Shown here piece by piece: positions 53,853-63,762 of a DNA stretch of 64,000 nt. The DNA is from Isoperla grammatica (taxonomy: Eukaryota; Arthropoda; Insecta; Plecoptera; Perlodidae). The stretch lies in assembly GCA_945910005.1 (NCBI GenBank), contig OX246743.1, positions 43,620,736-43,684,735 of the forward strand, in the 5' to 3' direction. Made by a program: the position numbers and the translations under genes. Below the pieces are notes generated by a model. That model was not told where the DNA came from. It searched no databases and worked only from the letters and a program-made list of their open reading frames with translations. How positions within the stretch are numbered: the stretch's first letter is position 1; each line of letters opens with the position of its first letter.

Positions 53853-56800
53853 ATGCGCGCGGGGGATGGTGGGACAGCGCGATGCCTATTGGGGCTGCTA
53901 TGGCTGCTGTCCGCCCCTTACACACCGACCCTCGGCTTTCCTCAGACCGTGAAAGAAGCCATCACGCCAACACCAGCAGGTAAACTTGTTTTTGTAATTT
54001 TCCTTTGCAACTCTCCAATGTATCTCCCTATATTATAAATGAAATTGCAACTTTTATCCCTAGTATAATGTCATCAGCATATATCATAGTTCTAGGACCC
54101 TCCACGTGTGTCTCTACTTTTCTTCCAAACAAACAGAATACTTCAAACTATCTTTTTTTCTAAAAAAAAAAAAAAAAAAACATCCGATACATGTAATTAA
54201 TGAACATGTAGGGGGATGTTGAGGATCGCCAAAGGGTGCCCTGATCAAAAAGATCCTTCTTAACGTCACACCTTCGCGCCTGTGGAGAACAATCTATACC
54301 CACAAGTTCTCATGAGAAAAAAAAAAAAAAAATAATAATAATAATAATAATAATGATAATAATAATAATAATAATAATAATAATAATAATAATAATAATA
54401 ATAATAATAATAATAATAATAATAATAATAATAATAATAATAATAATGATAATAATAATTAGCCAGACATAATTATTAAAGATCATGAGAATAGACAATG
54501 TATTATGGTGGATGTAGCGGTGCCCTCTGACAATAACATCACAACTAAGGAGGCGCAAAAGAAAACCAAATACAAAGACTTACAAATTGAAACCCAGAGA
54601 ATGTGGGGGATGCGGACAAAGGTAATCCCGATCATAATTGGAGCGACAGGTGCCATCAGCAAAACATTTCAAAATTATTTAGAAGATATACCAGGACAAC
54701 ATAACACAAGGGAATTACAGAAGACAGCCATTCTGCCCAAGTAGAACACGAACGCCGTTCCAACGTTGTACCGCCGGTACCATTTGCGTCGGAACAACGT
54801 CGGATTTATGTCGTGATACTGCGGCGGATTTCCGGAGTTATGACTAGCTGAACGGCATCGGTACGACGACGGTTTACGCTCTCCACAGGATCAGAACAAC
54901 CGAAACAGGCCTCAATCCCTCGACCGAAACCCCTCTAATACGCCGCGAATACGCGTTGGTACGACGGTGGAAATTAGTGGCGTATTTACGCCGTATTAGT
55001 AGCGTATTCACCCTCGTTTCAACAGCAGAAGCGCCATGTTAGCTTCACAAACCCACTTCTAATACGCCGCAAATACGCGTTGGTCCGACTGTGGAAATTA
55101 GTGGCGTATATACGCCTTATTAGTAGCGTATTTACCCTCGTTTCAGCAGCAGAAGCGCCATGTAAACTGCACAAACCCACTTCTAATACGCGTTGGTCCG
55201 ACGGTGGAAATAAGTGGCGTATTTACGCCGTATTGGTAGCGTATTCACCCTCGTTTCAGCAGCAGAAGCGCCATGTTAACTGCACAAACCCACTTCTAAT
55301 ACGCCGCGAATACGCGTTGGTCCGACGGTGGAAATTAGTGGCGTATTTACGCCGTATTAGTAGCGTATTCACCCTCGTTTCAGCAGCAGAAGCGCCATGT
55401 AAACTGCACAAACCCACTTCTAATACGCCGCGAATACGCGTTGGTCCGACGGTGGAAATTACTGGCGTATTTACGCCGTATTAGTAGCGTATTCACCCTC
55501 GTTTCAGCAGCAGAAGCGCCATGTTAACTGCACAAACCCACTTCTAATACGTCGCGAATACGCGTTTTCCGACGGTGGAAATTAGTGGCGTATTTACGCC
55601 GTGTTAGTAGCGTATTCACCCTCGTTTCAGCAGTAGAAGCGCCATGTAAACTGCACAAACCCACTTCTAATACGCCGCGAATACGCGTTGGTCCGACGGT
55701 GGAAATAAGGGGCGTATTTACGCCGTATGGCCGTATTAGTGGCGTATTCACCCTCGTTTTAGCAGCAGAAGCGCCATGTTAACTGCACAAACCCACTTCT
55801 AATACGTCGCGAATACGCGTTTTCCGACGGTGGAAATTAGTGGCGTATTTACGCCGTATTAGTAGCGTATTCACCCTCGTTTCAGCAGTAGAAGCGCCAT
55901 GTTAACTGCACAAACCCACTTCTAATACGTCGCGAATACGCGTTTTCCGACGGTGGAAATTAGTGGCGTATTTACGCCGTATTAGTAGCGTATTCACCCT
56001 CGTTTCAGCAGCAGGAGCGCCATGTAATCTGCACAAACCCACTTCTAATACGCCGCGAATACGCGTTGGTCCGACGGTGGAAATTAGTGGCGTATTTACG
56101 CCGTATTAGTAGCGTATTCACCCTCGTTTCAGCAGCAGAAGCGCCATGTAAACGGCACAAACCCACTTCTAATACGCCGCGAATACGCGTTGGTCCGTCG
56201 GTGGCAATAAGTGGCGTATTTACGCCGTATTAGTAGCGTATTCACCCTCGTGTAAGCAGTAGAAGCACCATGTCAGTCACGCCAGTCGGAATCACCTGTA
56301 TTTAATATCAATATTATATACATTCTAACAAAAGTAGTGGAAGGTCTACTCCTCCTAGCGCCCTGGTGAAAGACACACAACTCATCTCCGCTCAGCGCCC
56401 TCTGAAACAAACACGTATAAGTCGACTCATCTCAGCACCCTGGGAAATTCGGACACACGTCTACTCCTCCTAGCGCCCTGGTGAAAGACACACAAGTCAT
56501 CTCCGCTCAGCGCCCTCTGAAACAAACACGTATAAATCGACTTATCTCAGCACCCTGGGAAACTCAGACACTCGTCTACTCCTCCTAGCGCCCTGGTGAA
56601 AAGCACAGAAGTCATCTCCCCTCAGCGCCCTCTGAAACAAACACGTATAAGTCGACTCATCTCAGCACCCTGGGAAACTCAAACACACGTCTACTCCTCC
56701 TAGCACCCTGGTGAAAGACACACAAGTCATATCCTCTCAGCGCCCTCTCAAACAAACACGTATAAGTCGACTCATCTCAGCACCCTGGGAAACTCAGACA

Positions 56801-63762: not shown

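Follow-up and report, generated by a model that had tools for sequence, protein, structure and literature searches.

A probable non-autonomous TIR transposon with three satellite arrays in a LINE of Isoperla grammatica, and the relation of its arrays to its ends

The interrupted LINE and the edges of the insert

The window, i.e. the whole stretch of 64,000 nucleotides of Isoperla grammatica DNA that was analysed (assembly GCA_945910005.1, contig OX246743.1, positions 43,620,736 to 43,684,735 of the forward strand), contains a LINE copy whose single reading frame is split by an insert of 8,360 bp (54736-63095). Features of the insert and of the interrupted LINE, in coordinates of the window, are as follows.

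54460..54735, + strand: LINE left piece, C-terminal part of the reading frame (based on reading of the frame and on 582 relatives of the translated piece)
54734..54735: TG target-site duplication, left copy
54736..54748, + strand: TIR, left, 13 bp
54749..54926, + strand: left subterminal DNA, 178 bp, CpG-rich, 5 core-motif matches
54927..56273: 124-bp array, 10.9 copies, CpG-rich, core motif in 6 places
56344..57376: 115-bp array, 9.0 copies, CpG-poor, without core motif
57377..61427: middle with nested repeats, CpG-poor, without Pfam domain; probably acquired DNA
59073..59224: nested MITE-like repeat, two further copies in the window
59494..59683: nested short inverted-repeat sequence with TGACTAT ends
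60067..61086: nested foldback-like structure with (CACT)n
61428..62955: 70-bp array, 21.8 copies, CpG-rich, core motif in 22 places
62956..63082, - strand: right subterminal DNA, 127 bp, CpG-rich, 3 core-motif matches (computed on 62956-63095)
63083..63095, - strand: TIR, right, 13 bp
63096..63097: TG target-site duplication, right copy
63098..63496, + strand: LINE right piece, comprising the last codons, stop and 3' UTR, then the (ATA)n tail

When TG is counted once, the LINE frame reads ...ELQKTAIL up to 54735 and resumes at 63098 with GTARILRKVL and a stop codon. A search with the left piece alone retrieved 582 relatives, and motif counts were made on the best 120 of them. AIL is present in 110 of these 120, with GT right after the first AIL in 91 of the 110, and an RKVL-like end is located 5-7 residues past AIL in 92 of the 120. 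Since related LINE proteins cross the junction uninterrupted, both pieces are taken to form one LINE frame, with the uninterrupted state being the usual one. The preliminary description had proposed that excision would rejoin the split frame exactly. This is borne out by AILGT in 93 of the best 120 relatives, from which an empty site can be deduced at protein level. The LINE copy, bounded by an (AAT)n run (54331-54459) and an (ATA)n run (63497-63554), appears to be 5'-truncated. Between its stop codon and the (ATA)n tail, an imperfect 18/37-bp tandem repeat is found at 63313-63408.

Both edges of the insert can be read directly. CCCAAGTAGAACA occurs exactly (13/13 bp) at 54736-54748 on the forward strand and, inverted, at 63083-63095 on the reverse strand, so the perfect inverted ends described before are confirmed. 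A third exact copy was not found within the 64-kb window, nor was a second copy of the element seen there. The insert is flanked by ...ATTCTG on the left and by TGGGTACTGC on the right. Among duplication lengths of 1-7 bp, TG (2 bp) is the only one that fits the edges, as had also been claimed. With TIRs at its exact edges and a TG duplication, the insert displays two features of a TIR (cut-and-paste) transposon. The earlier reading is supported as far as a single insertion of a large TIR element, without recognisable transposase in its middle, into one LINE copy is concerned.

The significance of a 13-bp inverted pair on its own was rejected, because the window contains 974 exact 13-bp inverted pairs separated by more than 50 bp, and in 772 of these the distance does not exceed 20 kb (low-complexity words excluded, array and non-array pairs pooled). 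The pair delimiting the insert is nevertheless beyond chance because it sits on edges that are set independently by the LINE protein; the chance of an inverted pair on edges fixed in this way is about 7e-7 (7 x 7 placements). Inward of position 13, the ends agree at 13 of the next 22 ungapped positions (26/35 in total), and an offset 47-bp inverted match (77%) is located just inside them. When the TIRs are left out, left and right subterminal DNA align with a score of 50, the best of 1000 shuffles being 41.

Array units, CpG content and the subterminal core

The presence of three satellite arrays and nested repeats, noted in the preliminary description, was confirmed. The arrays are built of 124-bp (10.9 copies), 115-bp (9.0 copies) and 70-bp (21.8 copies) units, with mean pairwise identities of 91.9% (10 monomers cut), 93.4% (8 monomers) and 96.6% (21 monomers), respectively. 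A 70-bp spacer separates the 124-bp array from the 115-bp array, and the summed spans of the three arrays make up about 47% of the insert. Microsatellites are also found in the 4-kb middle. In agreement with the claim that a recognised transposase is lacking, six frames of the non-array middle (57377-61427, X at stops) yielded no Pfam family at E <=0.1. The sole non-microsatellite ORF of at least 100 aa in the middle (57684-57983) has no Pfam match at E <=0.01. A middle empty of Pfam domains is the expectation for any non-autonomous copy. Rfam gave no match on the window.

The nested MITE-like repeat, about 150 bp in length with AGGGCCGGTCTTACAAT / ATTGTAAGACTGGACCT ends, occurs in three copies in 64 kb (59073-59224, 13253-13402 and 49047-49197). 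The two copies beyond the insert share 96-97% identity with the nested copy, which points to recent activity of this family.

Because the window is rich in tandem arrays outside the element as well, the presence of three within it is not as remarkable as it might seem. Position 30015-31437 is occupied by a 76-bp satellite (18.7 copies, 99% matches) that is more uniform than any array in the element. Two frames stay open, for 194 and 258 codons, across a 45-bp minisatellite (12.3 copies) at 36422-36973.

Further, CpG content was compared along the insert. The observed/expected ratio is 1.63 and 1.70 in left and right subterminal DNA and 1.70 and 1.50 in the 124-bp and 70-bp arrays, respectively. 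Lower values were obtained for the 115-bp array (0.78), the middle (0.86) and the part of the window to the left of the element (0.92). The 200-bp CpG profile drops near 56.3 kb and rises near 61.5 kb. None of 39 control pieces of 1.4 kb attains 1.5 (maximum 1.37). The same value is reached by 20 of 287 control pieces of 190 bp and by 32 of 387 control pieces of 140 bp, so that CpG content of the short subterminal stretches says little alone. The CpG-rich outer parts of the element and its CpG-poor middle are different kinds of DNA, which is a new observation of this work.

The core motif, CGTCGGNACNACGTTG, was scored as a match when at least 11 of its 14 fixed positions agreed. Left and right subterminal DNA contain five and three matches, respectively, the 124-bp array contains six and the 70-bp array 22; there are none in the 115-bp array, none in the middle and one in the left 54.7 kb of the window. 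First-order random sequences of five regions gave means of 0.01-0.29 and a maximum of 3. These counts are not independent, because the core was first read by eye from the ends and the 70-bp unit together and because array copies are mutually dependent. Single units were therefore also compared with composition-matched random units, 1000 each.

The 70-bp unit aligns with the left end with a score of 49 (best of 1000 shuffles 45) and with the right end with a score of 37 (best 34), and the 124-bp unit aligns with the right end with a score of 35 (best 32); in each of these cases 0/1000 shuffles reach the score. The score of the 124-bp unit against the left end, 28, is reached by 66 of 1000 shuffles, which leaves the 124-bp array unsupported as a simple offspring of the adjoining left end. 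A plain-letter shuffle test of the same pair with the TIR included gave 33 versus a best of 30 in 100. The score of the 124-bp unit against the 70-bp unit is reached by 90 of 1000 shuffles, and those of the 115-bp unit by 980 of 1000 (left end) and 454 of 1000 (right end).

A wider test made use of all 16-base words from outer subterminal DNA, with 36 pieces of 1.5 kb as controls. At 3 mismatches, 24 matches were obtained in the 70-bp array (null maximum 6), nine in the 124-bp array (5), none in the 115-bp array (3) and seven in the middle (shuffle mean 2.9, maximum 8), controls having at most 3. At 4 mismatches, the respective numbers are 65 (null maximum 20), 30 (17), 0 (12) and 31 (shuffle mean 22.8, maximum 31), with at most 14 in controls. 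The middle is thus at the upper edge of chance in this test, rather than blank.

Judged by these comparisons, the 70-bp array is firmly tied to the ends and the 124-bp array moderately so, and the 115-bp array has no tie to them. An array unit sharing sequence with an outer end, as in Galileo and Tetris, is found for the 70-bp unit at both ends and for the 124-bp unit at the right end only. The preliminary description, in which the transposon spreads satellite arrays, is to be corrected in that a relation to the ends is apparent for the 70-bp array and, less strongly, for the 124-bp array, but not for the 115-bp array. Resemblance of units to ends, together with the CpG contrast, suggests that the 70-bp array, and perhaps the 124-bp array, probably grew from subterminal sites and that the middle was acquired.

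Alternatively, the insert might be a TIR transposon whose three arrays are all captured host satellites, the shared core being due to coincidence or to convergence on CpG-rich palindromes. A CACTA element with a captured satellite is on record (PMC8978399), tandem arrays are frequent in the window, the 115-bp array gives no sign of a link with the ends, and the 124-bp unit is within chance when compared with the left end and with the 70-bp unit. We regard capture of all three arrays as rather unlikely, since the 70-bp unit matches both ends and the 124-bp unit the right end (0/1000 shuffles each) and since the CpG step coincides with the motif-bearing parts.

Doubtful, too, and to a greater degree, is a composite origin by macro-transposition, in which two same-ended elements about 5 kb apart would have moved by their outermost ends together with intervening ordinary DNA. 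Such an origin would account for the CpG steps, and the outer parts (from 54736 to near 56.3 kb, and from near 61.5 kb to 63095) do differ sharply from the middle in both CpG and core motif. It would, however, involve inner TIRs, none of which remains: apart from both ends, no copy of CCCAAGTAGAACA was found in the insert at <=3 mismatches. As to an assembly artefact, in which arrays were collapsed or unrelated contigs joined inside the LINE, three arrays and long microsatellites are difficult to assemble and the junctions are known from the assembly alone, but a mis-join would not leave a 2-bp duplication and matching 13-bp inverted ends exactly where the LINE is interrupted, and we consider this very improbable.

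Affiliation of the element and closest known systems

The termini of the element are CCC..GGG. In Tc1/mariner elements, the sequence of the duplication is TA. Their duplication is 2 bp in length (PMC3706591) but here it is TG, and Tc1/mariner was set aside. So was ISL2EU (PHIS), which duplicates AT within A|AT|T (PMC4482050). Of the CMC/EnSpm lead mentioned in the preliminary description, the duplication length is retained, as CMC duplications are 2-4 bp (PMC4482050) and the one observed is 2 bp. The termini do not agree with it, because they are CCC..GGG and not 5'-CA..TG-3', the form given for most cases (PMC12730594). A Tetris-type foldback was set aside as well, a 13-bp TIR with 2-bp duplication standing against long TIRs with 8-10 bp. 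Lanisha is a lineage named in PMC12730594. The Repbase rule consists of equal duplication length and alignment of the first 11 bases (PMC4455052).

Satellite arrays are frequent in Helitron2/Helentron-type rolling-circle elements (PMC12628747), and an element of this type with a central satellite was considered. The inverted repeats are however exact, terminal at both edges and accompanied by a 2-bp duplication, and Helitron1 ends, 5'-TC..CTRR-3' (PMC3627910), are absent, the ends being CCC..GGG; Helitron1 was set aside, and an element of the Helitron2/Helentron type is the least probable of the explanations weighed here.

Sequence matches elsewhere were taken as chance. This concerns 28 stretches of viral contigs with the TIR and two ACG within 30 bases each, in which the terminus occurs once each and never with an inverted partner, and which have no blastn similarity to the element at E 1e-3. 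In viral contigs, no match was obtained with words taken from the monomers of the three arrays (70, 115 and 124 bp). One word of the 70-bp monomer has a single match (23-25 bp) in genome contigs, within an open 804-aa frame in a beta proteobacterium stretch of 64% GC. It was rejected as chance because no other part of the element matches there, though only about 0.01 matches are expected for 23 fixed bases. Among the literature matches listed, the first 12 TIR bases occur in two papers, both unrelated by title, and no title or abstract start describes the element.

Transposons with internal satellites are already established, namely Tetris, Galileo, Chenopodium CACTA and the Xenopus and Helitron cases. 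What sets the element apart from them, as seen in one copy, is that very short ends are combined with a TG duplication and with arrays that differ between its two ends. Tetris is a foldback element of Drosophila virilis (PMC4079207). Similarly to the element described here, it is non-autonomous, with no coding part found, a variable middle and tandem repeats near its ends, and its autonomous partner is reported not to have been found (PMC4079207). Its 220-bp repeats have a 37-bp stretch (about 80%) in common with the outer end, from which they are proposed to derive (PMC4079207). On the contrary, Tetris TIRs with the 220-bp repeat reach up to 1,735 bp, compared with 13 bp here, and its duplications are 8-10 bp, compared with 2 bp and different monomers at the two ends (PMC4079207). 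Galileo is a foldback-like element of the P superfamily, and further transposase binding sites are located in the tandem repeats of its ends (PMC4079207). It represents the mechanism proposed here, with the difference that Galileo sites come from binding work whereas ours are putative, and that its terminal inverted repeats are long (PMC4079207).

Jozin, a Chenopodium quinoa CACTA element, is similar to our element in being a large TIR transposon and in having, near one end, a satellite array on the kb scale, which in its case consists of 171-bp monomers and spans 5,550 bp (PMC8978399). CACTA subterminal regions contain direct and inverted repeats (PMC8978399). Jozin differs from the element in its CACTA ends, its 3-bp duplication and the presence of a transposase domain, and capture is the origin given for its array (PMC8978399). 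The Xenopus MITEs miDNA4 and Xstir are likewise non-autonomous with an internal tandem array, the copy number of which is variable; miDNA4 is described as a Tc1/mariner MITE, in contrast to the TG duplication and three unlike arrays found here (PMC12628747). Helitron/Helentron elements with central arrays are also mobile satellite carriers, but they are rolling-circle elements with other ends, differing from exact terminal inverted repeats and a 2-bp duplication (PMC12628747).

Proposed origin of the arrays and neighbouring features

The insert is probably one copy of a non-autonomous cut-and-paste DNA transposon that is located in the last codons of the LINE and whose 70-bp array and, less certainly, 124-bp array have grown from subterminal core sites. 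Such an element would have entered the last codons of an apparently 5'-truncated LINE, duplicating TG. A transposase supplied in trans would recognise the 13-bp ends and the near-palindromic subterminal core (approximately CGTCGGNACNACGTTG), which is a putative transposase site by analogy with Galileo and Tetris. Stretches carrying the core may have been duplicated by slippage or unequal exchange, giving rise to the 70-bp array inside the right end. The same route might have led to the 124-bp array inside the left end, with weaker support. The central 5 kb, containing the 115-bp array and nested repeats, would have been gained by insertion or capture, replacing any original coding part. The arrays may thereby multiply putative transposase binding sites. 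The element is known here from one copy, its junctions and array lengths being given as assembled.

How satellite DNA arises has been asked for a long time, and one of the sources put forward is the tandem repeats located within transposon ends. Should more copies bear it out, the element would be a useful test case for separating satellites grown from transposon ends from those merely captured, with one array tied to both termini, one more weakly and one not at all within a single insertion. As a single copy, it is a lead and not a demonstration. A more far-reaching and unlikely possibility is that the element belongs to an undescribed lineage with CCC..GGG termini and 2-bp duplication, the ends of which independently amplified different monomers around one near-palindromic putative transposase site. 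If so, each insertion would plant two ready-made satellite seeds, and satellites would spread as by-products of selection for transposase binding.

Several other features were detected in the window. Immediately downstream of the LINE, 63594-63749 encodes a Kunitz/BPTI domain (Pfam PF00014, E 3.2e-18), placing both transposon and LINE in or near a gene. Overlapping ORFs on the reverse strand (22677-24896) resemble the gag/protease part of an LTR retroelement, and the largest of them (22677-24452) matches retroviral-type aspartyl protease (PF00077, E 4.3e-7). Two ORFs at 5225-5560 and 12402-12731 are similar to each other and contain AAPAV/YGGY repeats like those of cuticle proteins, in keeping with an arthropod host. 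The former has no Pfam match at E <=0.01, and the latter matches Cuticle_3 weakly, with E 0.054, below the curated cut-off. They are possibly tandem duplicated genes.
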